Origin: Alphaproteobacteria bacterium
GTDB taxonomy: Bacteria; Pseudomonadota; Alphaproteobacteria; Rs-D84
Assembly: GCA_015062525.1 (NCBI GenBank)
Contig: SUUM01000008.1
Span: 1 to 35,412, forward strand
Direction of reading: 5' to 3'
Length of the DNA stretch: 35,412 bases
A program made the translations under genes and the position numbers. The number at the start of each line of letters is the position of its first letter. Within the stretch, counting starts at the first letter, position 1. The notes beneath the pieces were generated by a model, which was not told where the DNA came from, ran no database searches, and was given only the letters and a program-made list of their open reading frames with translations. Shown one piece after another: positions 496 to 35,412 of this stretch.

Positions 496-1707
496 TTATC
501 CTGTTATCATACTGGCGACATTGTTGGCGGTGCGACGTGCGGCATTACTTGATGCGTGTGCGTATATTTCGGTTGTGGTGATTTTTGTGTGTCCCAATAC
601 GTCTTTTAATATTCGTATATCTTCGCCCATGCTGGTTGCCAGTGTTGCAAAGGAATGACGCAAATCGTGTATTCGCATACGCGGTAATCCCGCACGATCC
701 AATGCCCACCAGAACGCTTTACGCAAATCTGTCAATGGACGCGTATGGTCGATTGGTGAATGAAATACATAGCGTTTGCTTTTACAAATTCTCAATGCAT
801 GTTTTATAACTTCTATTGCCGGATCGCCTAGCGGTACATTAAATGCATCTGTTTTGCGTTTATTTAAACGTAGATACCCGTTTTCTAGGTCTAATTCGTC
901 CAGTTCCAGGCTTGTTATTTCGCTGCTGCGACAGCCTGTTAGTGCAAGTGTTTTAATAGCTAGGATGGTTTGTGGTGCATATTTCCCAGCGCAAAATGCC
1001 TCGTCCAGTGCAGTAAATAAACGTTTATAACCATCAATATCTAGAATCGTATGGTTCATCTTTGGGGGTTTTGCCTTTTGAACCAAATGGCACGGATTCG
1101 AATTTATTGTGCGATAATTGTATTTTTCACACCAATTTAGAAAGGTCGATAATAACCGCATAACATGCAATCCAACAGCAACGGTTTTTGTGTTTTTGAT
1201 TTTGTCGTACATGTCTTGGATTGTGCACAGATCAATATCCGCAATGTATTTATCGCCAAGATATGGGATTATATACAGGCGCATCAATGTTTCGTTTGAG
1301 CGATAGGTGTTTTCCCGATTATTTTCGCGACAATGTTTTTCCATAAATATTGGGGTTAGTTCACGGACTTGTTTGCGTCGTGCTGCGGCCATTTCGTTTT
1401 GCTTTATGCGTATGCGCTGTTCTGATTGCGGGTCCAGACCGTTGGCGATATCTTGCTTGGTTTGTATCGCACGTGCACGAATCTCATTTAAGCTAAATTC
1501 CGCCAATGTGCCCAATCTCATATGCTTTTGTTGATATGAACCGCGAACGCGATATCCCAAATAGAACACTTTGCGTCCAGATGCGGCCGAATACCGGCAT
1601 TGTAGCCCCGGCAGTGCCGCATCTGTTATTTGCAAATCAATGTCGGATTTCAGTTTGTTCAGAAATCCTGTTGTTAAAACCAACTTTTGACATTTAAGTG
1701 CTCGCAT
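496..1707 (-). CDS. int: Tyrosine recombinase, P4/phage-type integrase
   Basis: A site-specific recombinase expected to integrate and excise the surrounding element. The N-terminal ~100 residues resemble the DUF4102-type arm-binding domain (YSAASGRKVFYLGYRVRG, then LGTLAEFSLNEIRARA). A core-binding SAM-like segment follows, then the catalytic domain. The catalytic set is visible: Arg in TGCRSSEI, the HDLRHSF box, LGHTKITTTEIYAHAS with the second His and the nucleophile Tyr. It appears complete and active. The start at 1707 is chosen because AAGGA lies six bases upstream; the longer frame to 1752 has no such site. It is the most downstream gene of the minus-strand satellite-like block, and its 3' end faces the acetyltransferase. 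Confidence 0.9.
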   Translation of the reverse strand: MRALKCQKLVLTTGFLNKLKSDIDLQITDAALPGLQCRYSAASGRKVFYLGYRVRGSYQQKHMRLGTLAEFSLNEIRARAIQTKQDIANGLDPQSEQRIRIKQNEMAAARRKQVRELTPIFMEKHCRENNRENTYRSNETLMRLYIIPYLGDKYIADIDLCTIQDMYDKIKNTKTVAVGLHVMRLLSTFLNWCEKYNYRTINSNPCHLVQKAKPPKMNHTILDIDGYKRLFTALDEAFCAGKYAPQTILAIKTLALTGCRSSEITSLELDELDLENGYLRLNKRKTDAFNVPLGDPAIEVIKHALRICKSKRYVFHSPIDHTRPLTDLRKAFWWALDRAGLPRMRIHDLRHSFATLATSMGEDIRILKDVLGHTKITTTEIYAHASSNAARRTANNVASMITG

Positions 1708-1770
1708 ATGTTGTCCTTTGTTACACACAACATTGATAATAAAAGCGCACAAGTCCAGTGAATAAGACTA

Positions 1771-2001
1771 TCAAGGCTCTTGTGTTTTTTGCTGGCTTTT
1801 GCGGATTTCTTGTATGAAATATTGCTCGCCCATGTCCCAAAATTCTGTCATTGCGCGACTTAAAATTGCGTGTATTTCATCTTTGGGTTTTCCTATTATT
1901 TCCACCGCGATGTTTTCGGATAATGTGTCGGATTTTTCTATTAAAAATGCAACTGTTTTATCCCATGCAGTTTTGATTTCAGTTTTTGTGTTTTGTGTCA
2001 T
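1771..2001 (-). CDS. Small hypothetical protein of the integrated element
   Basis: A 76-residue acidic, mostly helical protein (TKTEIKTAWDKTVAFLIEKS near the start). I do not recognise it. The ATG at 2001 is preferred because AAGGAG lies seven bases upstream, and because it overlaps the stop codon of the terminase-like gene as ATGA, which suggests translational coupling. No motif, membrane segment or signal peptide is visible. Its position between the small terminase subunit and the integrase suggests a job in the same element, but nothing more specific can be supported. Confidence 0.6.
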   Translation of the reverse strand: MTQNTKTEIKTAWDKTVAFLIEKSDTLSENIAVEIIGKPKDEIHAILSRAMTEFWDMGEQYFIQEIRKSQQKTQEP

Positions 2002-2477
2002 TTTTGTTCTCCTTTGTTTCCTTGTAATATGTTGCATAAATTTCTTAACGCCTCTGTAATTTCTTGGGTCAAGATATACTCAATGTCGGAAATGTTTGTT
2101 TGTCCGATAAGTCGCGGTGCAACACGTCGCGGAATCATCAGTAATTGATCCTTTGAAAATCGGGCTGCCGCAAAAGCCTCAGATTGTGCTTGTGCTAATG
2201 GTATTAGCTTTCCTGCACGTTCTTCGTATTCCAGTTTTTTCAGCATTGCATCGTATGTCGACTTCATTGCTTTGCTTCTTTGATAAGAATTTGAAGAACT
2301 GTCATTTGTGCGCGGGGTGTTATAGGCTGGGTTAGTGTTCTCTGCCCATTCTTTATCCGCCTTTTCGGGGTCTATTTTCCCGTCTATTAGTGTTATTCGT
2401 CCTGTTTCAATGGCTTTTTGGACTGCGGATACCGCAACACCGCGATGTGCGGCATATTCTCTTCTAGATAATAACAT
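1998..2477 (-). CDS. Phage terminase small subunit, Nu1-like
   Basis: A 159-residue protein resembling Nu1-type small terminase subunits, which bind the packaging site and recruit the large terminase. The N-terminus reads as a winged-helix DNA-binding domain (LLSRREYAAHRGVAVSAVQKAIETGRI, residues 2-28). A short DGKIDPEKADKEWAENT block follows, as often seen in these proteins, then a helical region with AQAQSEAFAAAR and MIPRRVAPRLIGQT. The start has AAAGGGG five bases upstream. No large terminase, portal or capsid gene is present in the window. A lone small terminase beside an integrase is typical of phage satellites that redirect packaging by a helper phage; that role is inference here. Confidence 0.7.
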   Translation of the reverse strand: MLLSRREYAAHRGVAVSAVQKAIETGRITLIDGKIDPEKADKEWAENTNPAYNTPRTNDSSSNSYQRSKAMKSTYDAMLKKLEYEERAGKLIPLAQAQSEAFAAARFSKDQLLMIPRRVAPRLIGQTNISDIEYILTQEITEALRNLCNILQGNKGEQK

Positions 2478-2590
2478 CGTTACCCCTTTTAGTGTTCGCC
2501 GTTCACCGTTTTTTTATTTCTGTCGCTGGGCAAGTGTCGGGGTCGCCGTTACCCTCAATGCGAAAAGTCGTCACAGAACCTATTATATTT

Positions 2591-3172
2591 TTATGTAAAA
2601 TTTCCTTCATTCCTTATCCATCCTATGATTTGTGCCATTGTTTTATCTTGCCCCATACATTTGCGTTTCAATGAGGCTTCCCCATGTTCAATTTGTTTCG
2701 GTGTAAATTCATCGAATATTGGGAACAAGTTTGGGGCTCTTTTAATGATTTTGGCTAACGAAAATTCGTTGTCTATGTGATATTTTGGCTCTCGTGATGG
2801 GTTAAAAGAAGTTGCTAATTTTTGAAGCAAATCATTCGTATGAGTATGCATTTCCTTGCTTTGTTTTATTGTGTTTGTACTGTACTTGCTATTTGCTATT
2901 GCATCTGATTTCTGTTTGATATCTGATAATGTCTGTTTGATGTCTGATGAATTCTGTTCGCCCCAACGTGCCAATCTGTTCGTGGCCAGTCGTTCACATT
3001 TGGCTTTGTATTTAATATCGTCTTCATCTAGTTCGGCTTTTATAAATGGCCACACAGCGCTTGAACATTCCATGTCGGGGTATTTCAAAATCGCCATAAA
3101 TATGTCGCCGCGTTCTTCGCGTGATATATTTTCCAATAAAAGTGCCCATTTTGGATTGGCCAGCCGTTTCAT
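2591..3172 (-). CDS. DUF6291-like phage protein, possible replication role
   Basis: A 193-residue protein whose first ~65 residues (NPKWALLLENISREERGDIF through WPFIKAELDEDDIKYKAKCE) resemble DUF6291, found in phages and integrated elements. The middle is polar and Lys/Ser-rich with two similar SDIKQ stretches. The C-terminus is a separate helical part (FTPKQIEHGEASLKRKCMGQ). Domains of this kind often sit next to phage replication genes, so a replication-initiation role is possible but unproved. The ATG at 3172 is preferred over the one at 3178 because AGGA is seven bases upstream of it. It follows the AlpA-like gene closely on the same strand, so the two are probably co-transcribed. Confidence 0.55.
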   Translation of the reverse strand: MKRLANPKWALLLENISREERGDIFMAILKYPDMECSSAVWPFIKAELDEDDIKYKAKCERLATNRLARWGEQNSSDIKQTLSDIKQKSDAIANSKYSTNTIKQSKEMHTHTNDLLQKLATSFNPSREPKYHIDNEFSLAKIIKRAPNLFPIFDEFTPKQIEHGEASLKRKCMGQDKTMAQIIGWIRNEGNFT

Positions 3173-3181
3173 AACCATTTC

Positions 3182-3391
3182 CTATTGCTTGTCGCTTGTA
3201 CGCTGGAATATGTTGTTTTGTTCAAATTCAGCTATATCTTGTTTCCGATATACAATGCGACCAACACGTTTTAGAAATTTTGGTCCAACACCGGTGCTGC
3301 GCCATTTTTGTAAAGTATTGCGTTTCAATCCCCACATTTCAGCCAGTGCACGTTCCGTCATATATTCGTCCTTGGATAATATTGTTGTCAT
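3182..3391 (-). CDS. AlpA/excisionase-like DNA-binding protein
   Basis: A 69-residue helix-turn-helix protein of the MerR-like excisionase fold. The segment MTERALAEMWGLKRNTLQKW is the recognition helix pair; GVGPKFLKRVGRIVYRKQDI is the following beta-wing with the usual xVxYRxxDI ending. Small proteins of this type act as AlpA-like activators or excision factors in satellites such as P4 and PICIs. A good ribosome site (AAAGGAC) lies upstream of the ATG. It heads the small cluster leading down to the integrase, which fits a regulatory role for integration or excision. The operator is not identifiable by eye. Confidence 0.75.
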   Translation of the reverse strand: MTTILSKDEYMTERALAEMWGLKRNTLQKWRSTGVGPKFLKRVGRIVYRKQDIAEFEQNNIFQRTSDKQ

Positions 3392-3443
3392 GGTTTGTCC
3401 TTTTGTTTCGGGTTTTGATGGGTCTATGTAAAGATATATGCAT

Positions 3444-3473
3444 AAAAAATAACCGTGCGCAATGCACGTTTTT
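3444..3473. terminator. Possible bidirectional hairpin terminator
   Basis: CGTGC and GCACG (3454-3458 and 3464-3468) form a five-base-pair stem with a five-base loop. There is a T run on the plus side and an A run on the other, so on the minus strand it would end transcription from the DUF6362-like gene at 3553. The stem is short, so this is tentative. The rest of 3392-3552 contains repeated GTTAGTTT words and A/T-rich sequence, presumably the promoter region of the AlpA-like gene. Confidence 0.35.
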
Positions 3474-3552
3474 GCGACAAAAAGGAAATTAAGTTAGTTT
3501 AGGTTACTTTACGGTATAAAAAGGTACGATATAAGTATACAGGTTAGTTTGT

Positions 3553-4023
3553 TTAGTGGTTTAATTTCCAAACCAGCGCATCGATTGCGTTGGTGTAACG
3601 ACGACTGGCCGTCTGACGTAACAGCCCAGTCTTTTTGCTGAGTTTATTCATTGATAAACCTATTGAGTGCAGAATCAATAATTTTCGATCCGTTACACTG
3701 TCTACAGAATCTAACCAGTGCACCAAAACATTATAAAAATTATCGTGTGTATTATCAAATGGGGCTATATTTGGGGGCAATTTAACGTCTGCAATAACAG
3801 ATTCAAACCATTCATATCGAACAGAACATTCCGCTGGCCATGATGCCAACATATCTTGCCGTGTCTTGTCGTTTTTATTCATTTGAATAGCAAGGATGAC
3901 CGCAGAGTAGATTTGTGCCTCGACGCGTGCTCGTGTCCACTTTGTCTCATCGTCCAATTCTTCAAAAAAACGGTTAAGAATAACACGTCGATTATTATTT
4001 TTCATACAGAAATCATACCCCAT
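3553..4023 (-). CDS. DUF6362-like protein with C-terminal helix-turn-helix
   Basis: A 156-residue protein. The layout matches what I know of DUF6362 proteins from alphaproteobacterial phages and gene-transfer-like elements: an N-terminal helical part (WTRARVEAQIYSAVILAIQM), a conserved WP tryptophan-proline (MLASWPAECSVRYEWF), then a C-terminal HTH of sigma-factor style (LSMNKLSKKTGLLRQTASRR). The final helix would contact DNA. It may be a regulator of the element, but its target is unknown. The start is uncertain; an ATG at residue 7 (4005) is an alternative and neither has a strong ribosome site. It lies upstream of the AlpA-like gene on the same strand. Confidence 0.5.
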   Translation of the reverse strand: MGYDFCMKNNNRRVILNRFFEELDDETKWTRARVEAQIYSAVILAIQMNKNDKTRQDMLASWPAECSVRYEWFESVIADVKLPPNIAPFDNTHDNFYNVLVHWLDSVDSVTDRKLLILHSIGLSMNKLSKKTGLLRQTASRRYTNAIDALVWKLNH

Positions 4024-4098
4024 AATCCATAAAAATCAAGAAAAAGCAATAAAGTAAGAAAATATATTTGGATAATCTTATACAAGTCTATCTATATT

Positions 4099-4368
4099 TT
4101 ATTCCACAAACGTTATCCCAAACCATTTTTGCATGACGGTCAGGCGGGATTGATAGTCGCCTGCAGAGTTGATTTCTGTTTCATATTCGCGTTTTAGTTG
4201 TGCCGATAACCCAAGTTCACGCACCAGGCGATTACACACACCCATAAGATAGAATATATTGCCCGTCGGTCCGTTCAGGTCGATGACCAGGCCTGTTTGA
4301 TATCTCGCCCCCGGCACACCCCGCTGGGCGACGTGTAGTTTCCGTTCCAGCGCATCAATTGTTTCCAT
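4099..4368 (-). CDS. Phage/plasmid-type hypothetical protein
   Basis: An 89-residue protein with a central LVIDLNGPTGNIFYLMGVCN motif and a C-terminal GDYQSRLTVMQKWFGITFVE. Proteins with this IDLNGPxGN(I/A)F signature recur in prophages and plasmids, but I know no assigned function. The gene overlaps the end of the upstream gene by 14 bases, which points to coupled translation. No secretion signal or metal-binding motif is visible. Confidence 0.55.
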   Translation of the reverse strand: METIDALERKLHVAQRGVPGARYQTGLVIDLNGPTGNIFYLMGVCNRLVRELGLSAQLKREYETEINSAGDYQSRLTVMQKWFGITFVE

Positions 4369-4888
4369 GTGCGGCGCCTTTGTTTTTTAGTTCTTGCTGA
4401 ATCTGTGTCCACATCAATTCCAGTTCATCCAGCCCCGTCATGTCTGATTTTAACCACATTTCTGGGGTCTGCCATACGTCGTCCTGGGCACAGGCCAGCG
4501 CACTTTCCACCAATTTGCGGATGCGGCGGTGGCGCATTTCGTTCTTGATTGCGGACCGGTACAGCATGCGCCTGTCCACCGGGATGGGGCGTGGTGTTGT
4601 ACCGGTGTGATACGCCCACCACTTGGCCATTTTTAGTTTGTTCAGCATTGCCACGCGCAGCATCGCCACCCCATAACTCAGGGTGCCGGGACCATCGAAT
4701 ATCTCGTCGGCCAGGTGTCGCCCGGCGCGCCCGTTCAGAAATTCTAGGATTTCATCGGCGGACTTTTCGGGGTGAATTTGCCCCAGGCGTTTAACCGTGA
4801 TGTCCCAGATTGCGTTTCGGTGGTCTGGGCTGCCATAATGTGCCGCCAGCACACCATAGAATCCGTGTTGCTTGTTTATCGTAGTCAT
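4355..4888 (-). CDS. Hypothetical protein of the integrated element
   Basis: A 177-residue protein I do not recognise. Visible elements are HYGSPDHRNAIWDITVKRLG near the N-terminus, GRAGRHLADEIFD at about residues 53-65, and a basic stretch RSAIKNEMRHRRIRKL near residue 112. The ATG at 4888 has AGAGGC upstream. Its local sequence is noticeably more G/C-rich than the genes around it, so it may have a different origin from its neighbours. It is the first gene of the minus-strand block; the intergenic region 4889-5010 separates it from the divergent plus-strand genes and should hold promoters for both directions. Confidence 0.5.
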   Translation of the reverse strand: MTTINKQHGFYGVLAAHYGSPDHRNAIWDITVKRLGQIHPEKSADEILEFLNGRAGRHLADEIFDGPGTLSYGVAMLRVAMLNKLKMAKWWAYHTGTTPRPIPVDRRMLYRSAIKNEMRHRRIRKLVESALACAQDDVWQTPEMWLKSDMTGLDELELMWTQIQQELKNKGAAHGNN

Positions 4889-5010
4889 GTTGTGCCTCTT
4901 GTTTTTTCAACACAACAATGCCAACAAAAAATGAAATAGCTAGTGAAATAAAAAACTGGACTTTTCGCGAACATTAAGGACAAATACGACAACTTTTTAA
5001 GGGGTTGCGT

Positions 5011-5220
5011 ATGAAATACAAGCACTTTGACGAGATTGAACCGAGCCACAACACAAATTTTACCATGCTCTACTTTGCCGCCTGTCGTTCGTTATGCAAA
5101 CTGGAATCGGCGATACGCAGAACAAATGGTGGCAAACTTACCTTTAGGCAGGCATGGCTACTGCGCCGCATCCAGCGCAAATTTGTCCAGATGGTGTCCA
5201 CATATAAAACAGAACATTAG
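5011..5220 (+). CDS. Small basic hypothetical protein
   Basis: A 69-residue protein with a basic C-terminal half (RRTNGGKLTFRQAWLLRRIQ). I do not recognise it. The ATG at 5011 is chosen over the TTG at 5005 because AAGGGG lies six bases upstream of the ATG. It stands alone between the satellite-like block and the restriction-modification operon, divergent from the former. A small DNA- or RNA-binding role would fit the charge, but that is a guess. Confidence 0.45.
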   Translation: MKYKHFDEIEPSHNTNFTMLYFAACRSLCKLESAIRRTNGGKLTFRQAWLLRRIQRKFVQMVSTYKTEH

Positions 5221-5314
5221 GGCTAGTTATTGTTTTTTGCATATTCTGTAAAGTGAAAAATTACTGGATCCAATTTGCTATATTTTCTATTATCAAATCA
5301 AAGGAAAGGAATAC

Positions 5315-6247
5315 GTGATTGCTATACCCGCCAGATTGCCGGATTATGTTGATTGCAAACCTGTCTTGAAATGGGCTGGTGGCAAGGGGCAATTATTGGA
5401 CCAAATCGAACCTAAATTGCCATTAAAACTGAAAATGGGTGGCATCAAACGCTATATTGAACCGTTTGTTGGTGGCGGTGCCGTATTCTTTGACATCTAT
5501 AATAAATACCAAATCCAGGAAGCATATTTGTTCGACATCAATCCTGAGTTGGTAATTCTGTATAATGTTATTAAGTACAATGTTGATGAATTGATTGTTG
5601 AGCTGACTAAATTGCAGACAGAATATCGATTGACCGAAAATCAAAAAGAATACTATTACGCACGTCGTGATGAATATAATGAATTCGACAAAGACATTGA
5701 TGCGAATGTCTATCGTACCGGTTTTGTTCGCCGTGCGGCTTTGACTATATTCTTGAATCGGACTTGCTTTAATGGCCTGTTCCGTGTGAACAGCAAAAAC
5801 AAGTTCAATGTTCCAATGGGCAAATATACAAACCCACGCATATTGGATGAAGAAAACCTGCGTAATGTGTCTGATGCTTTGCAGATTGCAACCATTATTC
5901 AGGGCGACTTTGGCGATACATCAAAGTATGCGACGGATGACACATTTATCTATTACGACCCTCCATACCGCCCAATTCGTGAAACTTCGTCTTTTAATTC
6001 GTATGCGGTTGGCGACTTTGACGACAATGAACAAATCAGACTAAAGAACGTTTTTGATACCTGTCATCAAATGGGGGCTTTGCAGATGTTAAGTAATTCC
6101 GACCCAACAAATTATGTTGATGACCCGTTCTTTGATGACTTGTACCAAGATTATAAGATAAATCGCATTATGGCCAAGCGACTGATAAATTCCAAGGCGG
6201 ACGGTCGTGATGCAATTCGGGAACTTTTGATTACAAATTATGAATAA
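5315..6247 (+). CDS. dpnM: DpnM-type adenine methyltransferase (GATC), Dam family
   Basis: N6-adenine DNA methyltransferase of the Dam/DpnM (alpha) class, expected to methylate the A of GATC and protect host DNA from the neighbouring nuclease. The SAM-binding half shows LKWAGGKGQLLDQI (residues 19-32) and the FVGGGAVFFD glycine motif. The catalytic DPPY is near residue 215, after the SAM motif as expected for this class. FLNRTCFNGLFRVN is the conserved central region. Length (310) is normal. The start is GTG, preceded by AAAGGAAAGGA. It overlaps dpnA by eight bases and leads a dpnM-dpnA-dpnB operon. A GATC site (5268-5271) lies in the presumed promoter region, so methylation could feed back on expression, which is inference. 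Confidence 0.92.
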   Translation: MIAIPARLPDYVDCKPVLKWAGGKGQLLDQIEPKLPLKLKMGGIKRYIEPFVGGGAVFFDIYNKYQIQEAYLFDINPELVILYNVIKYNVDELIVELTKLQTEYRLTENQKEYYYARRDEYNEFDKDIDANVYRTGFVRRAALTIFLNRTCFNGLFRVNSKNKFNVPMGKYTNPRILDEENLRNVSDALQIATIIQGDFGDTSKYATDDTFIYYDPPYRPIRETSSFNSYAVGDFDDNEQIRLKNVFDTCHQMGALQMLSNSDPTNYVDDPFFDDLYQDYKINRIMAKRLINSKADGRDAIRELLITNYE

Positions 6248-7019
6248 GAAACAGTATAGACTTTATTGTGAAGATTGCCTGAAAAAGTTAGCCGAAATCC
6301 CCGAAAACACTTTTGACATGATTTTTGCGGACCCTCCATACATGCTGTCCAATGGTGGTATCACCTGCCAGAACGGTTGTGTTGTTTCTGTGAACAAAGG
6401 CGATTGGGATAAATCGCATGGCCTTAGTGAAGATTTCGAGTTTCATAAAAAGTGGCTATGTGCCTGTCATCGTGTATTAAAACCAAATGGCACCCTGTGG
6501 GTCAGTGGTACATATCACAGCATTTATTCATGCGGCTATGCGATGCAGTTGCTGGGTTTTCATATCTTGAACGACATTACTTGGTTTAAGCCAAATGCCA
6601 GCCCGAATATGTCTTGTCGCTATTTTACGGCCAGCCATGAAACATTGCTGTGGGCCAGAAAAAACAAGAAATCTAAGCACACTTTCAACTATGAAGCGAT
6701 GAAGAACGGCGATTTCCCAAAAGACTTTATTAAAAAGCCGGGCTGTCAGATGCGTAGTGTTTGGGCAATTGGCACACCAACCAAATCCGAAAAAATACAT
6801 GGGAAACACCCGACACAGAAACCATTAGAATTATTGGAACGCATAGTCTTGGCATCAACCAATCCTGGAGATTTGATTCTGGACCCGTTTATGGGCAGTG
6901 GCACAACTGGTGTCGCCGCACTGAAACATGGCCGCCGCTTTGTTGGCATAGACATGGAATCACAATTTGTTGAATTGGCTGAAAAAAGATTATATGATGC
7001 ATCTGAAAAGAAGGATTAA
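6240..7019 (+). CDS. dpnA: DpnA-type adenine methyltransferase (second GATC enzyme)
   Basis: Second N6-adenine methyltransferase of a DpnII-type system. Motifs are in beta-class order: FADPPYML near residues 29-36 comes first, and the SAM-binding ILDPFMGSGTTGVAAL lies near residue 211, followed by GRRFVGIDME. HPTQKPLELLERIV just before the SAM motif is the usual group signature. In the pneumococcal system the equivalent enzyme also methylates single-stranded GATC and helps transformation; whether that holds here is unknown. The gene starts inside the end of dpnM and ends three bases before dpnB. Length (259) matches the family. Confidence 0.92.
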   Translation: MNKKQYRLYCEDCLKKLAEIPENTFDMIFADPPYMLSNGGITCQNGCVVSVNKGDWDKSHGLSEDFEFHKKWLCACHRVLKPNGTLWVSGTYHSIYSCGYAMQLLGFHILNDITWFKPNASPNMSCRYFTASHETLLWARKNKKSKHTFNYEAMKNGDFPKDFIKKPGCQMRSVWAIGTPTKSEKIHGKHPTQKPLELLERIVLASTNPGDLILDPFMGSGTTGVAALKHGRRFVGIDMESQFVELAEKRLYDASEKKD

Positions 7020-7022
7020 AAA

Positions 7023-7919
7023 ATGAAATACAGTCAGATATTTAATAAGCTGTTGGGTTGCAAAAACGATGATGAAGTTTTTGACTACTTGGTCGGCAAC
7101 CTGAAAGAAACCATCAAGTCGTGGGATTATTTTGTAAACTGGCAAAAAGTTCTGAAGAATTATAAAAGCGTAAAGGTTTCTTTGAATCTGTTAAATACCC
7201 TGATTGGTGAAGCAGATATTGAGAAAGCTGCACGTGAATTGCTGGCGCAGTATCCAGACGTGATTAAAATTGTTCCGGCATTGCTGGCCTGTCGTGACAA
7301 GAACATTTGCCTGCTGACAGATATGCGCAAATTTGATTTGACTCGTTTTGATTTCAGCAAACCGATGTCACCTGCGGACGGTGCAATGTTTATGAAAGAA
7401 AGCGGTTTCTTGGACCTGTTGTCCGACCGCACAATCAAATCTATCCCTGATTACTTTATTGGGGTTGAGGTTGGTCTTGATTCCAACGGTCGTAAAAATC
7501 GCAGTGGTACATCAATGGAAAACTTGGCAGAATTCTTTATCAAAGACATTTGCCAGCGCAATGGATACGAATACATCGCCCAGGCCACCGCTGACAAGAT
7601 TTATAAACAATGGGGCAAAAAGATTACGGTTAACAAATCGTCCAAACGCATCGATTTTGCAATCAATACACCGCATAAACTGTATTTGATTGAAACGAAC
7701 TTCTATGGTGGTGGCGGTTCTAAATTGAAATCGACTGCCGGCGAATATGCAGATATTTATCATCAATGGACCAATGACGGCCACCAGTTCATTTGGATTA
7801 CAGACGGTTACGGTTGGCAGAAAACTCAACGTCCATTACGTGATACATTCGACACAACAGACTACATCCTGAACATCGACATGGTGCAAAAAGGTGTGTT
7901 GGAATACTTACTACAATAA
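7023..7919 (+). CDS. dpnB: DpnII-type restriction endonuclease (GATC)
   Basis: Type II endonuclease expected to cut unmethylated GATC. The 298-residue protein matches DpnII in size and layout. The N-terminus begins with YSQIFNKLLGCKNDDEVFDY. The C-terminal nuclease core has RNGYEYIAQATADKI, then KRIDFAIN (Asp near residue 212) and YLIETNFYGGGGSKLKSTA, the family's characteristic acidic, glycine-rich active-site block. It follows dpnA by three bases and completes the usual methyltransferase-methyltransferase-nuclease order. No frameshift or truncation is seen, so the system appears intact. A nine-base gap separates it from the STAND ATPase gene, which may be co-transcribed. Confidence 0.9.
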   Translation: MKYSQIFNKLLGCKNDDEVFDYLVGNLKETIKSWDYFVNWQKVLKNYKSVKVSLNLLNTLIGEADIEKAARELLAQYPDVIKIVPALLACRDKNICLLTDMRKFDLTRFDFSKPMSPADGAMFMKESGFLDLLSDRTIKSIPDYFIGVEVGLDSNGRKNRSGTSMENLAEFFIKDICQRNGYEYIAQATADKIYKQWGKKITVNKSSKRIDFAINTPHKLYLIETNFYGGGGSKLKSTAGEYADIYHQWTNDGHQFIWITDGYGWQKTQRPLRDTFDTTDYILNIDMVQKGVLEYLLQ

Positions 7920-7928
7920 AGAGATAAA

Positions 7929-10619
7929 ATGATAAAAATAGAAGTAGCAACAGAAAAAAACGCATCAACTAAAGATAAGGGCGATTTGTTAGAGAGCTTA
8001 GTTGCGGATATTTTAACATGTTTAAATTATAAAACAACGTCTCAAGTTGCTTTCACTGGTATGGAGATTGATGTATTAGCAGAAAACAACCAAACAAAAG
8101 ATGAAGTCTTCGTTGAATGTAAAGCCAACAACTCAGAAAATATCTCTGCCGATGTAATAAAAAAATTGGTAGGAGAAGTAGTATTACGTGAGGTTAGCTC
8201 TGGATGGCTTTTTTATACGGGCGAATTATCTAAGGGAGCGAAAGGGTTAATTGATGACAATAAAAAGCACAATGCAAAGATACAAATATATAGTCCTGAA
8301 AATATTATACAATTATTGATCAACAGTAAGAGGATTTGTTCCCATGAAAGCATAGTAAAACCTGAAGGAAAGCAGTTTTCAGAAAATATCTGCTTGTTAA
8401 TCACCCCTCGTGGCTTATTTTGGATTGTGCCAATTATATCTGAGGGACTGGAAACTGGTGTTATTGTATATGATGCAAAAACAAATAGCCCTATTTATTC
8501 CCAACCATTATTGAAAGCTCTATCTGATTTGGATACTAGTTTCAAAACGTTAGAATGGATGCCCAATGAAAATGCTACAGATAAAATTAAAGAAGATATA
8601 ATAAATCAAATGGACAACATTGTTACGATAAGCTATGGCGATGAGTGGGCTGACTATAGACCCTCTCGTCCTCAAGACTATGTTGGTCGAGAAGAGCTAC
8701 TGTCTGGAATGATTAGATTTTTAGAATCTGTTAGAAAACGAGAAACATCAACGAGAATTATGGGTTTATCTGCCCCATCTGGGTGGGGGAAGAGCTCTAC
8801 GATTGTTAAACTTATTAGCTCTAGTAAAAACACTAGAAATAAAAATAATATTTATGTATATGGAGTTGATACAAGAGCTGCAGTTTCTGATAAATATGTA
8901 GAATTAGTATTATTAAAATGTCTCACAAAAGCAATTGAAGATGGGTTCATTCCACAAAAATTTAAAAATTCAATTACATTAGGCAATGCTAATAATCTAT
9001 TAGACAGTAGCAGTCTAGCTGAATTATTTTATTATTTAAAAAGCAAGCAAAAGGTAATTCTTATATATTTTGATCAGTTTGAAGAATTGTTTTTAAATAA
9101 CGAGCTATCAGTTTTATTTGATAAATTTAAACAGTTTATCAATAGTGTATGTGAACATGAAGAAAACTTGGTTGTTGGATTCTCTTGGAAAACAAATATG
9201 AATATTCCATCTGATTATCCTGCATATAATATTTGGCATAATTTTAATGATAGAAGAAAGAATTTTGAATTGGGGCCGTTTACAAGTAAAGAGATATCTT
9301 CTACAATAACAAAGTTAGAAAAAGAATCCGGCAAAAAAATAGACGCTAAACTTAAACGTAATTTAACAGATCATTGTCAGGGATATCCATGGCTACTAAA
9401 AAAGTTGTGTATATATGTCTATAAATCTTTACAAAATGAAACAGAAGCTGATATTTTTTCTCAGAAATTAAATGTTGAAGGACTTTTTAAGCAAGATTTA
9501 GAAAATTTAACTTCTGATGAAAACGCTTGTATAGAAACTATAGCAAAAAAATCCCCTGTTAAAGAAATTGAGATTTCTCAGTTGTTTTCCGCTGATATTA
9601 TAAATACACTTTTTAATAAAAGACTTCTTATAAAATCAGGTTTAAATATATCGTTATACTGGGATATTTTTAAAGATTATGTTTTAACAAATAAAACACC
9701 GATAGTATTAGAAAAATATATTTGTTCTTCCCGCCCTCAGAGATACTATGAAGTTATAGAAGCTCTATTGAGCGGCAAAAACATATCAGAAATTTCTAAA
9801 ATTCTAGGTTTATCAAGAGGTACTCTTGATAACATATTACGAGACGCTGTTATGATCGGCAATATAAAAAGAACTGGCAATAAAATTGAATTGCTTCAAA
9901 AAAATGAGGACGCTGTCATAACTGCTATGCGATTATTTTTTCAAGAACACGAACTTTATGATATTCTAAAAAAACAGAGCGAAGATAAGATTACTACTCC
10001 AACAGATTTTATAAACATAATAAAACACACACATCCAAACTTTGCTGACAAAACATTTGTTGCGTACTCTCAAACCATGTTAGAGTGGTTTAGGGTTTGT
10101 GGTTTTGTTACCGTGGATAAAGAAAAGATACAAATTTGCAATACCACAGAAAACATAAAAATACTTTTGAAAGAAAAAATATCAAATAATATAGGGATGG
10201 ATTCTTTTAGAGGTGGTGCGCCTTACCCGAAGGTAGAACGATTTTTACACCGTCTTTTTCAGCAAAATAAATTAGATATTTCCATAATTAAAGAACCAGG
10301 AATGAGAAATATAATTTCTCTTTTAAAGCAATTTGACTTGATAGAACACAGCGATTGTTATTTATATCCTAAATTTGACTCTTTTGACAGCACAATAAAC
10401 AAGCTAAAACATATGGTTATGAAGACAAAAGAAATGCTTTTAATAGCTAAGATAATGAAGGAACAACCTAATATTTTGGGGTCCGAATTGGGTAAGATAA
10501 TCAATAAGCAATTTGATTATAAATGGAAACCTGCTAGTGAAGTTCGCATAGGTAATGGGCTTAGGTTGTGGTATGTAAACCTAACTAGTTCTCCCGAACT
10601 AAGGCTACCATTATTTTAG
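7929..10619 (+). CDS. PD-(D/E)xK nuclease-STAND ATPase fusion, candidate defence protein
   Basis: An 896-residue multidomain protein. Residues about 15-130 are a restriction-endonuclease/Mrr-like domain (GDLLESLVADIL, then GMEIDVL with Asp48 and VFVECK with Glu63 and Lys65), so the nuclease residues look intact. Residues about 248-600 are a P-loop ATPase: DYVGREELL at its entry, Walker A SGWGKSS near 285-291, Walker B ILIYFDQFEELF near 376-387. The DQFEEL form is typical of nSTAND-type NTPases. Residues about 617-640 (ISEISKILGLSRGTLDNILR) look like a winged helix, and the remainder may be a sensor. Nuclease-STAND fusions are known phage sensors (Avs-like); this role is inferred. The gene is clearly more A/T-rich than the dpn genes, so it was probably acquired separately. 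Confidence 0.75.
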   Translation: MIKIEVATEKNASTKDKGDLLESLVADILTCLNYKTTSQVAFTGMEIDVLAENNQTKDEVFVECKANNSENISADVIKKLVGEVVLREVSSGWLFYTGELSKGAKGLIDDNKKHNAKIQIYSPENIIQLLINSKRICSHESIVKPEGKQFSENICLLITPRGLFWIVPIISEGLETGVIVYDAKTNSPIYSQPLLKALSDLDTSFKTLEWMPNENATDKIKEDIINQMDNIVTISYGDEWADYRPSRPQDYVGREELLSGMIRFLESVRKRETSTRIMGLSAPSGWGKSSTIVKLISSSKNTRNKNNIYVYGVDTRAAVSDKYVELVLLKCLTKAIEDGFIPQKFKNSITLGNANNLLDSSSLAELFYYLKSKQKVILIYFDQFEELFLNNELSVLFDKFKQFINSVCEHEENLVVGFSWKTNMNIPSDYPAYNIWHNFNDRRKNFELGPFTSKEISSTITKLEKESGKKIDAKLKRNLTDHCQGYPWLLKKLCIYVYKSLQNETEADIFSQKLNVEGLFKQDLENLTSDENACIETIAKKSPVKEIEISQLFSADIINTLFNKRLLIKSGLNISLYWDIFKDYVLTNKTPIVLEKYICSSRPQRYYEVIEALLSGKNISEISKILGLSRGTLDNILRDAVMIGNIKRTGNKIELLQKNEDAVITAMRLFFQEHELYDILKKQSEDKITTPTDFINIIKHTHPNFADKTFVAYSQTMLEWFRVCGFVTVDKEKIQICNTTENIKILLKEKISNNIGMDSFRGGAPYPKVERFLHRLFQQNKLDISIIKEPGMRNIISLLKQFDLIEHSDCYLYPKFDSFDSTINKLKHMVMKTKEMLLIAKIMKEQPNILGSELGKIINKQFDYKWKPASEVRIGNGLRLWYVNLTSSPELRLPLF

Positions 10620-17810: not shown

Positions 17811-17837
17811 AAAACCGCCAATTGGCGGTTTTTTTAT
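17811..17837 (+). terminator. Terminator of rpmH
   Basis: AAAACCGCC and GGCGGTTTT form a perfect stem around AATT, followed by further Ts. It begins three bases after the rpmH stop and may also serve the convergent XRE-like gene. Confidence 0.9.
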
Positions 17838-18019
17838 TCCAGCGGACGTTCCGTTATTATTACAAACATTATTTTCTGATATAAATCCAATTCAATTTGA
17901 CCCGTTCTTATCATGGAATAAGTTATATCATTGCTAAGCGCCAGAATATTACACATTTGCCATGCAGGTATACCCAGTTCTTGTCTTGTACTTTCTATGC
18001 GTTGTCCAATATGCATCAT
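17834..18019 (-). CDS. Small XRE-like helix-turn-helix protein
   Basis: A 61-residue protein starting MMHIGQRIESTRQELGIPAW, which matches the first helices of a Cro/CI-type HTH; the next segment (QMCNILALSNDITYSMIRTG) fits the recognition part. It is shorter than most XRE regulators. The TTG at 18055 would lie within the terminator of the upstream RNA, so the ATG pair at 18019/18016 is preferred; GGGGG lies just before them. It is the downstream gene of RNA cassette 1, as the partial gene at 35346 is for cassette 2; the two proteins align as GxxLxxxRxxM-type starts. Confidence 0.6.
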   Translation of the reverse strand: MMHIGQRIESTRQELGIPAWQMCNILALSNDITYSMIRTGQIELDLYQKIMFVIITERPLE

Positions 18020-18033
18020 CACCCCCAATAAAC

Positions 18034-18202
18034 AAAAACCGCGTTTGAAAATCAAAAGCGGTTGGAGGTTTAGAACTATTACAGAAAATAGCGTTGTTTA
18101 TTTATGTATATCACAACCCTCCAACCACTTGGGTTGGAGTTTTACGTCTTGACGACGTTCTGTAATGGGTTCTAAAGCCCCGCACCGGAATCACCCCAGC
18201 GC
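18034..18202 (-). ncRNA. Structured leader RNA or sRNA, cassette copy 1 (possible attenuator)
   Basis: On the minus strand the predicted RNA runs from about 18202 to the T run at 18034. The outer stem pairs 18158-18176 with 18069-18086 (one internal two-base mismatch). Inside, CTCCAACCC (131-139 of 18xxx) pairs with GGTTGGAGGG (18117-18126). A GTTGT/ACAAC hairpin lies at 18113-18117 and 18093-18097. A second CCTCCAACC (18060-18068) overlaps the AACCGC arm (18058-18063) of a terminator whose GCGGTT arm is 18037-18042. GGTTGGAGGG could therefore pair with either CCTCCAACC copy, and the second pairing would break the terminator. Pairings, promoter and position all recur in copy 2. I do not recognise the family. 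Confidence 0.65.
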
Positions 18203-18208
18203 ACGCCT

Positions 18209-18254
18209 ATTATATGACATATAAAATACAATTTCAAATACTTAGATAAATAAA
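18209..18254 (-). promoter_or_regulatory. Promoter of RNA cassette 1
   Basis: On the minus strand TTGAAA (18232-18237), a 17-base spacer and TATAAT (18209-18214). The box TTTTATTTATCTAA lies just upstream (18241-18254) and recurs upstream of the second cassette's promoter, so it may be an operator or UP element. Confidence 0.75.
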
Positions 18255-23750: not shown

Positions 23751-24190
23751 TTCGAAACGGAAATCATTATAAAACCGAATTATTATATATTTTAATAAAT
23801 TCTTTTGCAAGTGTTTTGTTGAAATTTTTTTGAATTTTTTTGTCATGAAACACGATAAAGCATATTATTATAAATTATATTTTAACCAGGCTTTACCACA
23901 AATCACAGAAATCACAACACAATCAAAACACGCGAACAAATTAATTTCGAACGTCAACAAGATATTGAACATATAAGAACAGGCACTATATTCAATTGCA
24001 AAACAAAATAAAAAAAATTATGCCTGTCAGGGTTTTCAGCAAAATTATATTTGTTTATTGATATTTTTTATTTTTCCCATGTTTTAACGCAATTTTCGTG
24101 ATATTTGTTTAGCAAAAATTAACATCGCAATGTTTTATATTTTTTTATACAAAAAACATGCGTAATATCAATAAGTTAATCGGCATAAAA
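23751..24190. other. Gene-free A/T-rich intergenic region
   Basis: No convincing gene on either strand; the sequence is strongly A/T-rich with runs of A and T. The left end must carry the promoter of the marR-tolC operon. No RNA gene or repeat is recognised in the middle. The right end leads into the paired palindromes. Confidence 0.5.
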
Positions 24191-24308
24191 ACTATAAAAC
24201 AAACCAACGTTTGTTTTATACCATTTTGTCGAACAAAAAAATAGCAGATTTCCGCCATTTTTGCAAGCGAAAATCAACTATAAAACAAACGTTGGTTTGT
24301 TTTATAGT
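24191..24308. repeat. Paired inverted palindromes upstream of glycine-rich genes
   Basis: 24191-24220 and 24279-24308 are 30-base perfect inverted copies of each other, with a 58-base spacer. Each is itself a palindrome: TATAAAACAAAC and GTTTGTTTTATA arms around CAAC in the left copy and GTTG in the right copy. The right copy has 14-base arms (24277-24308) and lies 16 bases before the start codon at 24325. It could be a double regulator site, a transcript hairpin, or the ends of an invertible segment. Confidence 0.8.
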
Positions 24309-24324
24309 CTAAATGGGGGGATTT

Positions 24325-25323
24325 ATGCCGGCAATACATGTTAATAATGTTGAAATTCAGGTGTATGAACAGCAATATACATCACCCACCCTGCACGTAC
24401 AAAATACCGACGGAAAAATATACCACGCAATTGTTATACCCCAGGGGGGCGAATTTCTTGATGCCTCGGAAAAACTGGTATATTCCGCGGATTCAATCAA
24501 TACATGTCAACCGGTCACATTGGATGCGGGATTGTATCGCGTGGAATTACGTGGCGGCGCGGGTGGAAAACAATCGCGGTGCAATGCCGGTTTGGGCAAG
24601 ACAAACATTACCGCGAATGTTGTAAGCCAGATTTTTAAATTACCCACACAAACAACCGTATATGCGTTTCGTGGTGGCGACGGTAATGACAGTCCCACGG
24701 TGACAATACATCAGATTCCGGGTGGTGGTTCATCGGGTGTGGACAGCATGCTGATTATCGGGGACCGTGCAATTGTTGGTATCGGCGCACCATCGTCACA
24801 GTGTTTTAATTTATCTGCAAGTGCATATCCTGGTGGAGGATTACCAATAGGATTAACATGTCAATCCACACCATCTGGAACATATTCTGTACAAGATATT
24901 AAGATAGGCGATTCTTATATACAGATATCTAATGGCTGTGCCGGTGGGGGTGGGGGTGCGCCAAATGGCGTTGGTGGTGCGGCGGGTTCAAGCACGCAAT
25001 TTAAAACAACCGCCGGCAAAAATGCAACCACCAATGGTGGTGGTAATGGTGGTGATATTGAAAATTTAACGGGGGATTCACAAACAAAAAATATCGCATA
25101 CGGTGGTGCGGGTGGCAAAAACGTATATTGGCAATGTGCCGGTCACACGGCGGTATCGTATGGTGGGGGCGGCGGTGGGGCATCGTGTGTCCTGAGGAAG
25201 CCCAGCATCTGCGAAAGCCTTGGTTCATGGTGTTATTCCGATTGCGCCGATGGTGGTGATGGGGCATCGGGCAGTACCGGCAAATCAGACACCAGTTACG
25301 TTAAAATTTATAAAATAGGATAA
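24325..25323 (+). CDS. Glycine-rich protein, paralogue 1
   Basis: A 332-residue protein I do not recognise by function. The N-terminal ~75 residues form a non-repetitive domain (TDGKIYHAIV, KLVYSADSINTCQPVTLDAG, YRVELRGGAGG). Gly-rich blocks follow (PGGGSSGVDSMLIIGDRAIV, AGGGGGAPNGVGGAAG, SYGGGGGGASC), ending SGSTGKSDTSYVKIYKIG. Gly-rich, Cys-containing repeats suggest a structural or surface protein, but no signal peptide is visible. GGGGGG lies five bases before the chosen ATG; a start at 24313 would add four residues. It is followed after five bases by its paralogue. Confidence 0.7.
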   Translation: MPAIHVNNVEIQVYEQQYTSPTLHVQNTDGKIYHAIVIPQGGEFLDASEKLVYSADSINTCQPVTLDAGLYRVELRGGAGGKQSRCNAGLGKTNITANVVSQIFKLPTQTTVYAFRGGDGNDSPTVTIHQIPGGGSSGVDSMLIIGDRAIVGIGAPSSQCFNLSASAYPGGGLPIGLTCQSTPSGTYSVQDIKIGDSYIQISNGCAGGGGGAPNGVGGAAGSSTQFKTTAGKNATTNGGGNGGDIENLTGDSQTKNIAYGGAGGKNVYWQCAGHTAVSYGGGGGGASCVLRKPSICESLGSWCYSDCADGGDGASGSTGKSDTSYVKIYKIG

Positions 25324-35056: not shown

Positions 35057-35123
35057 TGACAAAGGTTCTTAATTCTTGCCCCCACTGATGACTAATGACT
35101 GATACCTGATGCCCCGGATAAAC

Positions 35124-35170
35124 TTTTATTTATCTAATCGATTGAATATATCAAAAATATCAATTATAAT
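35124..35170 (+). promoter_or_regulatory. Promoter of RNA cassette 2
   Basis: TTGAAT (35142-35147), a 17-base spacer and TATAAT (35165-35170). The box TTTTATTTATCTAA (35124-35137) lies just upstream, as in cassette 1. Confidence 0.8.
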
Positions 35171-35176
35171 ATAGGG

Positions 35177-35317
35177 GCATTGGGAAACCGGTGTGGGGTG
35201 TAAGAGCCTCGTAAGGGATACTCCAACCATGGTTGGAGGGATGTGAATATATTGAATAAGCACACTATTACTCTTAATAGCTCTTAACCTCCAACCGCCT
35301 TAAGTGTGCGGTTTTTT
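35177..35317 (+). ncRNA. Structured leader RNA or sRNA, cassette copy 2 (possible attenuator)
   Basis: The predicted RNA runs from about 35177 to the T run ending at 35317. TAAGAGC (35201-35207) pairs with GCTCTTA (35280-35286); copy 1 has a different sequence pairing at the same place. CTCCAACC (35221-35228) pairs with GGTTGGAG (35231-35238). TGTG and CACA (35242-35245, 35261-35264) form a short hairpin. CCTCCAACCGC (35288-35298) supplies the 5' arm of the terminator AACCGC/GCGGTT (35293-35298 and 35308-35313) with a six-T run. As in copy 1, GGTTGGAGG can pair with the upstream or the downstream CCTCCAACC. It lies 28 bases before the XRE-like gene at 35346. Confidence 0.65.
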
Positions 35318-35345
35318 ATTTGATAAAATAAAAGGGAGGAATCAA

Positions 35346-35412
35346 ATGGCAACTGTATTGGTTGATGCAAAATATTTTGGTAATTATCTGCGCATGGCGC
35401 GAAATTCAATGA
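35346..35412 (+). CDS. XRE-like protein, 3' end outside window
   Basis: Only 22 codons are visible, beginning MATVLVDAKYFGNYLRMARN. The G-x-x-L-x-x-x-R pattern is the first helix of a Cro/CI-type HTH and aligns with the start of the gene at 17834-18019. GGGAGGA lies five bases before the ATG. It is directly downstream of RNA cassette 2. Confidence 0.5.
   Translation, partial: MATVLVDAKYFGNYLRMARNSM

Follow-up and report, generated by a model that had tools for sequence, protein, structure and literature searches.

Transcription attenuators of the trp type are built from four RNA segments, in which segment 2 pairs with segment 1 or 3, and segment 3 pairs with segment 2 (antiterminator) or with segment 4 (terminator, with its U-run). 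Plasmid copy-number RNAs of the pT181 and ColE1 type depend on loop-mediated, sequence-specific RNA-RNA compatibility, which in pT181 operates via attenuation. The leader-RNA family described here follows the same 1-2-3-4 segment logic as trp-type leaders; in contrast to these, it shows no conserved leader peptide in the few copies read by eye (the frame of a candidate starting at a GTG behind GGAGG is not kept between them), and it includes four extra helices, two helices formed by locus-specific sequences that we will refer to as “codes” (x and y), and tens of copies before unrelated genes. Unlike the pT181 and ColE1 RNAs, it holds both partners of each code in one RNA, and it is chromosomal, with many paralogues. 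The predicted mechanism is attenuator-like, and the code layer is the new part.

We know of no gene-adjacent terminator switch and no paralogue-specific codes in the bacterial RNAs GOLLD, ROOL and OLE. These are described as homo-oligomeric structured RNAs (PMC12286853), large and ornate when compared with our family, and their self-association is a possible analogue if x and y pair between molecules. Multi-copy riboswitches, such as those for c-di-GMP (GEMM), and tandem riboswitches also place one RNA class ahead of many genes, at times in tandem, as the present family does (PMC9481103, PMC7266159); compared with those riboswitch regulons, the family has no Rfam riboswitch match, carries hypervariable paired helices, and precedes targets without a common pathway. 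Furthermore, a survey of structured RNAs of the human microbiome names HTH_XRE as the domain most often found immediately behind the candidates that it lists (PMC8040213), and the comparison of those candidates with our family is at the level of the survey list only.

Identity and Distribution of the Leader RNA

Both copies found in the window (the whole stretch of 35,412 nucleotides analyzed, from an uncultured alphaproteobacterium) are members of one structured leader-RNA family of ~150–190 nt. Copy 2 occupies 35174–35317 (+) from P0 to terminator, as delimited by covariance-model matches and folding, and copy 1 occupies 18033–18205 (−). This family is a previously undescribed, putative RNA switch, occurring in multiple copies per genome ahead of regulator and cell-surface genes: at the gathering thresholds of Rfam 15 (4227 families), the window and 16 loci matched nothing but two tRNAs, a permissive Rfam search with copy 2 gave just chance-level matches of 12–14 bits, and our literature search found no description of this leader or of Rs-D84 RNAs. 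A DNA search of the window's own assembly returned seven copies. A first covariance model (R1) was seeded from four copies and then refined, since a MAFFT alignment including the divergent copy of locus L008 misaligned its 5′ part (L and G numbers are our handles for loci and genomes). On the window's own genome, R1 found eight clear copies (E < 1e-10), a ninth with E 0.003 and a tenth no better than chance; copy 1 matched with E 1.2e-28 and copy 2 was recovered genome-wide with E = 1.5e-16, the calibration of these E-values being rough.

Most genomes of the window's genus carry the leader according to R1, and a second model built from 104 copies (R2) detected it in 184 of 201 genomes from Rs-D84, the order to which Candidatus Enterousia and its relatives belong. 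These are gut bacteria with tiny genomes (~1 Mb), holding from 8 to 53 copies each; the highest counts were 47 (G009) and 53 (G171), with 33 in a genome outside Rs-D84 (G488). Outside this order the RNA is sporadic in the class Alphaproteobacteria: a class-wide draw of 385 genomes gave 26 matches, of which four (among them G000) fall in the genus and 22 elsewhere in the Alphaproteobacteria, and a phylum-wide draw of 299 genomes added just one, also an alphaproteobacterium. Nearly all the sampled genomes are uncultured MAGs. The GyrA encoded in the window is 86–96% identical to that of many gut MAGs labeled Alphaproteobacteria bacterium or Candidatus Enterousia, and Enterousia has been placed in Rs-D84, whose uncultured members have reduced genomes and are presumed to depend on partners (PMC12306168). 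In G488, which belongs to another family, the genes behind most copies read (L293–L312) encode short XRE-type or 46-aa proteins, and an additional helix, GCAACGC/GCGTTGC, is present in the RNAs. Three “viral” IMG/VR contigs also carry the leader (L290:12019-12174, L291:8441-8589 and L292:767-922); these may be viral or host fragments.

An earlier note on this DNA, made from the window alone, had proposed a mobile or duplicated regulatory module. Duplication is borne out, the RNA having been duplicated along with its gene (L001/L002/L003), and nothing marks a mobile element: blastn of two leader copies against phage and plasmid collections gave no match. A selfish, MITE-like repeat without any regulatory role would suit the high copy number and the boxes repeated upstream in the window's genome; it is hardly credible given the constant place between promoter and gene, the compensatory changes in all helices, the conservation across the order, and those two empty searches. 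As regards the boxes, the palindrome GATAAACTTTTATTTATC or a relative lies upstream of most cassettes in the window's genome, and is absent from the cassettes read in other genomes; it also recurs at dozens of genome sites with no leader nearby, some of which have TGATACCTGATGCCCCG upstream.

Architecture and Covariation

From 5′ to 3′, the family is arranged as −10 box, P0, P1a (with x in its loop), y, an optional P3, strand 1, strand 2, P5, P6 (with y′ in its loop), x′, strand 3, terminator, Shine-Dalgarno (SD) sequence and start codon. Among 175 non-redundant copies, 134 have a match of at least 5/6 to TATAAT within 35 nt upstream, mostly 9–11 nt before the start of the RNA model, and transcription probably starts at P0. 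Helices were evaluated by a mate-swap test, in which helix partners are exchanged between copies (86 non-redundant copies, 2000 permutations). The nine predicted helices tested there, P0, P1a and P1 to P7 (the last being the antiterminator, 2:3), gave z −7.7 to −36, with none of the 2000 permutations being as good; the terminator (3:4) is supported by covariation as well.

In copy 2, the palindromic box GATAAACTTTTATTTATC (35117–35134) lies upstream of the promoter and outside the RNA. The promoter (35142–35170, +) consists of a −35-like TTGAAT (35142–35147), a 17-nt spacer and a −10 TATAAT (35165–35170), and the leader opens with the P0 hairpin (35177–35194; swap z −25.7, pairs formed in 93.9%). 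The P1a hairpin (35195–35210; z −11.3), whose stem is GGGG/CCTC here and GGGG/CCCC in the family, exposes the hypervariable code x, TAAGAGC (35201–35207), the 5′ strand of P1 or outer stem (98.2% paired, z −29.0); it is followed by the likewise hypervariable code y, TAAGGG (35212–35217), the 5′ strand of P2 (95.1% paired, z −35.7). Strand 1, CTCCAACC (35221–35228), is the 5′ half of P4 (1:2, z −11.9), and strand 2, GGTTGGAGG (35231–35239), can pair with it or with strand 3 as P7, the antiterminator (93.7% paired, z −16.6). Next come the P5 hairpin (35242–35264; stem 97.9% paired with compensatory changes, z −21.4) with its conserved GAATA..GAATAA (internal) loop, and the P6 hairpin (35265–35280; z −7.7), with the stem CTAT/ATAG, found as CAAT/ATTG or CCGT/ACGG in other variants, and y′ in the loop (35271–35276). 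The covarying partner of x, x′ (GCTCTTA, 35280–35286), precedes strand 3, CCTCCAACC (35288–35296), which pairs with strand 2 or, within the intrinsic terminator AACCGC..GCGGTTTTTT (35293–35317), with strand 4 (z −20.5 for 3:4). The optional P3 gave z −14.5. Thus, the promoter, outer stem, hairpin CTCCAACC..GGTTGGAGG, CCTCCAACC and terminator pointed out in the earlier note are all present between 35117 and 35317 (+).

The same order of elements, claimed for a second place on the opposite strand, was recovered at 18033–18214 (−), behind a −10 TATAAT at 18209–18214: P0 (18182–18204), P1a (18167–18182), x (18169–18176), y (18158–18166), P3 (18145–18157), strand 1 (18132–18139), strand 2 (18118–18126), P5 (18093–18117), y′ (18078–18086), x′ (18069–18076), strand 3 (18060–18068) and terminator (18033–18063). 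The exact palindromic box, included in that claim, is not present at copy 1, which has just the related AAGATTTTATTTATCTAAG.

Pair counts over 120 copies gave 91.8% standard pairs and 1322 double-changed cells for the terminated set of helices, and 91.3% and 833 for the alternative set, against 34–46% and at most 239 in slid controls, with partners shifted by 1–3 columns; the slid controls of the terminated set alone gave 38–43%. The counts for P0–P5 lean toward structure, because the alignment was fitted to these helices by the model; those for P1a, P6, P7 and the terminator, which are outside the model, are free of such bias. The covariation of x:x′ and y:y′ would be compatible with pairing inside one RNA or between two.

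The P5 loop is A-rich and conserved, and in distant homologues it is seen to be internal (AAUA/AAUAA), with a variable helix as its cap. A rival reading is a metabolite or ion riboswitch, in which P5 and the junction would constitute the aptamer, P4, P7 and the terminator the expression platform, and x and y drifting peripheral helices. The 5′ leader position, the terminator/antiterminator layout, the conserved P5 loop and the many, partly tandem, copies agree with such a reading. We nevertheless judge it unlikely, as invariant unpaired bases are few (the P5 loop AAUA/AAUAA and some others, such as U30), and as the targets and codes discussed below speak against it.

The Predicted Terminator/Antiterminator Switch

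An intrinsic terminator lies between leader and coding region in 160 of the 175 non-redundant copies, and every one of the 175 can pair strand 2 with strand 3 over 6 or more contiguous bp (9–11 bp in most); the 3′ part of strand 3 pairs with strand 4 as the terminator, which in the copies examined is mutually exclusive with 2:3. Within the window, CCTCCAACC is found 4 times vs. 0.11 expected. Folding of single copies yields the terminated form (z −2.7 to −3.9 vs. shuffles), and copy 2 folds exactly so. Nested folding places the energy minimum at the terminated form for 167 of the 175 copies, and forcing 2:3 costs a median of ~10 kcal/mol; “off” is therefore the likely default and “on” would need help, a prediction only, given that nested energies cannot weigh pseudoknotted combinations. 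The layout is that of a transcription attenuator, well supported by sequence, and control of read-through is predicted. The repeated cis-regulatory RNA module with terminator proposed in the earlier note is supported, with eight clear and one weaker copies in this genome and the terminator frequency just given.

Terminators are degenerate in some copies of tandem arrays. Two distant single copies from alphaproteobacterial genomes of 3.5–4.3 Mb (L243:2970-3140 and L244:3033-3214), ahead of genes for an unassigned 95-aa protein and a KilA-N protein, respectively, lack a clear terminator, and strand 3 might mask the SD there instead.

Genes Behind the Leaders

The distance from the RNA match to the start codon is mostly 40–59 nt, about 45 nt. 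In the main, the genes encode small HTH proteins or proteins of the exported and surface type. Among 131 downstream proteins, ~40 match Cro/C1-type HTH families; other families are outer-membrane beta-barrels, opacity/OmpA proteins, surface antigens, autotransporters, glycosyltransferases, PLD and trypsin, and four proteins match the model of the Rickettsia adhesin Adr. By a simple home-made hydrophobicity rule (not SignalP), 61 of the 92 targets with 100 aa or more appear to be exported, vs. 40 of the 187 other ORFs of the same loci. This collection shares no metabolic pathway, which counts against the riboswitch. In the window, copy 2 precedes the start of a small HTH_3 (XRE-type) gene cut by the contig end (ATG 35346, 35346–35412, +; SD 35334–35340), the complete 72-aa protein of this family in L002 scoring 23.9 in Pfam over a cut-off of 23. 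The 60-aa gene behind copy 1 (17834–18016, −; family MxxGQxIExxRxxxGIPxxxMCN) has an HTH-like pattern only, and its HTH identity received no support from Pfam or from PDB sequences; HTH-type genes behind both copies, as had been suggested, are thus corroborated for copy 2 and not for copy 1. The earlier note had also held that copies with no HTH gene nearby and no conserved terminator would argue against a cis switch: the terminator is conserved, yet many copies stand ahead of exported or surface-protein genes, not HTH genes.

Free-standing sRNAs are a further alternative, by which x/y or the CCUCC strand would act on other mRNAs and the gene behind would be expressed separately or by read-through. 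The leaders have their own promoter and terminator, the upstream copies of tandem arrays have no gene directly behind them, and the CCUCC strand could pair with SD sequences. Against these points, a co-directed gene with an SD lies about 45 nt behind most copies, strand 3 is complementary to both strand 2 and strand 4 in nearly all of them, and in the single case searched, the code pair was found at no other place in its genome, which makes this alternative distinctly improbable.

Besides these genes, the window contains a paralogue (24313–25323) of the target gene of L008 with no RNA copy ahead of it; two long inverted repeats, ACAAACCAACGTTTGTTTTATA / CTATAAAACAAACGTTGGTTTGTTTTATAG, precede it within 24190–24330. 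The region 496–10619 is prophage- or island-like, with an integrase, small helper ORFs, two DNA methyltransferases, a probable restriction endonuclease and a large NTPase-like protein (by eye from translations).

Locus-Specific Codes

The code helices join the loop of P1a with the tail behind P6 (x:x′) and the loop of P6 with the tail behind P1a (y:y′). As read from the sequences, they are reciprocal loop-tail long-range helices, complementary within each copy, differing between unlinked loci, and often identical among tandem copies that serve a single gene. The earlier note had observed that the outer stem differs between the two window copies, TAAGAGC/GCTCTTA in copy 2 vs. TTTAGAAC/GTTCTAAA in copy 1, and this proved in the end the most informative feature. 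Mean pairwise differences (G488 and the HTH-linked copies of G003 and G022) reach 0.37–0.41 for x and 0.55–0.56 for y, vs. 0.00–0.27 for every other RNA element measured in the same copy sets and 0.60–0.68 for the unaligned upstream flank; code strings come from an automatic search, with some degenerate copies mis-parsed. An anticodon-like reading of the P1a loop (YKUNNNAA) was discarded, the code triplets being too varied for any codon set.

Codes differ even between near-duplicates. The genes of L180 and L182 are 97% identical in DNA with both codes changed, and those of L024 and L026 are 96% identical with different codes, each complementary within its copy; between the window copy and its 91%-identical paralogue (L002/L026), x changes from UAAGAGC/GCUCUUA to UCAAAGC/GCUUUGA, with y unchanged. 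Because the codes change faster than third codon positions, neutral drift is insufficient unless gene conversion keeps the genes alike. The riboswitch reading, with x and y as drifting helices, is again disfavored, as these diverge much faster than the P0, P3 and P5 stems and the third codon positions of the gene behind.

Tandem arrays comprise 2–6 copies spaced by about 200–250 bp. Under a lenient criterion (at least 5 common letters in each code), both codes are shared in 8 of 31 tandem pairs, from G003, G009, G022 and G171 of one genus, and in 13 of 2475 unlinked pairs, drawn also from G000, G060 and G488 (Fisher p 4e-11); by eye, no exact double match is present among those 13. Apart from their codes, seven of the eight matched tandem pairs are not clearly closer than other pairs (inner identity 0.58–0.74 vs. 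a mean of 0.58; P0 0.42–0.57), and the eighth (L194, inner identity 0.97) may be a recent duplicate. Among unlinked pairs, 272 have an inner identity of 0.75 or more, and only 1 of these shares both codes by the same criterion. The remaining 23 tandem pairs do not match in their codes, some of them being heterogeneous arrays ahead of XRE genes. Two of these arrays, L357:406-816 and L365:353-762, from different species, have the same codes copy by copy, while the two copies within each array differ. When G171 was searched for one of the matched code pairs, with its parts in either arrangement, just the two tandem copies were returned, and hence no separate trans partner for that pair.

Tandem copies often match in their codes though the RNA has diverged, and unlinked near-duplicates hardly ever do. 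On this ground above all, x and y are taken to behave as marks of locus identity, which suggests RNA-RNA recognition restricted to one locus. Drift, as the riboswitch reading would have it, does not explain matched codes in tandem copies. The codes could also be pure avoidance marks, with all pairing intramolecular and selection acting merely against cross-pairing, in the absence of any regulation in trans. Codes do differ among unlinked copies, and intramolecular folding accounts for all the covariation; the same code in tandem copies with diverged P0, P3 and P5 is not predicted by avoidance, and we hold this option to be rather unlikely. The codes call for one of two readings, avoidance of cross-pairing among leaders or pairing of leader molecules within a locus, and the tandem copies with matched codes favor the latter.

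Proposed Mechanism

On balance, we lean slightly to the view that these are dispersed 5′ leader RNAs that regulate the genes behind them by transcription attenuation and carry locus-specific pairing codes. Through the codes, a leader would pair only with leaders from its own locus, and the 8–53 leaders of a genome could coexist without cross-pairing. Most likely, leaders, for example as the terminated short RNA, would also recognize nascent leaders of their own locus through x and y; occupation of x/y in trans would then shift the nascent RNA between 1:2 plus 3:4 (off) and 2:3 (on). A common input could come from the binding of a protein or ligand to the conserved P5 loop. The stronger version, in which leaders are addressed genome-wide by a two-part barcode (x, y) and same-locus recognition in trans (dimer or strand swap) sets the termination of surface and regulator genes, is put forward tentatively, as a possibility with the balance of probability against it.

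Biological Significance

If leaders were indeed addressed in this way, the system would be comparable to the compatibility control of plasmids, though exerted on the chromosome and gene by gene; selection would diversify the barcodes between loci and match them within each locus. More generally, if the proposed explanation is true, a single RNA fold with interchangeable barcodes would let bacteria of ~1 Mb address dozens of surface and regulator genes one by one, in what would be among the densest cis-regulatory RNA regulons known to us. Engineered RNA switches could then draw directly on a natural set of mutually orthogonal attenuators, and the family would offer a clear evolutionary case in which selection keeps the RNAs of different loci orthogonal and those of one locus matched. 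For Candidatus Enterousia and the other Rs-D84 bacteria, the leaders would offer a first handle on gene control.
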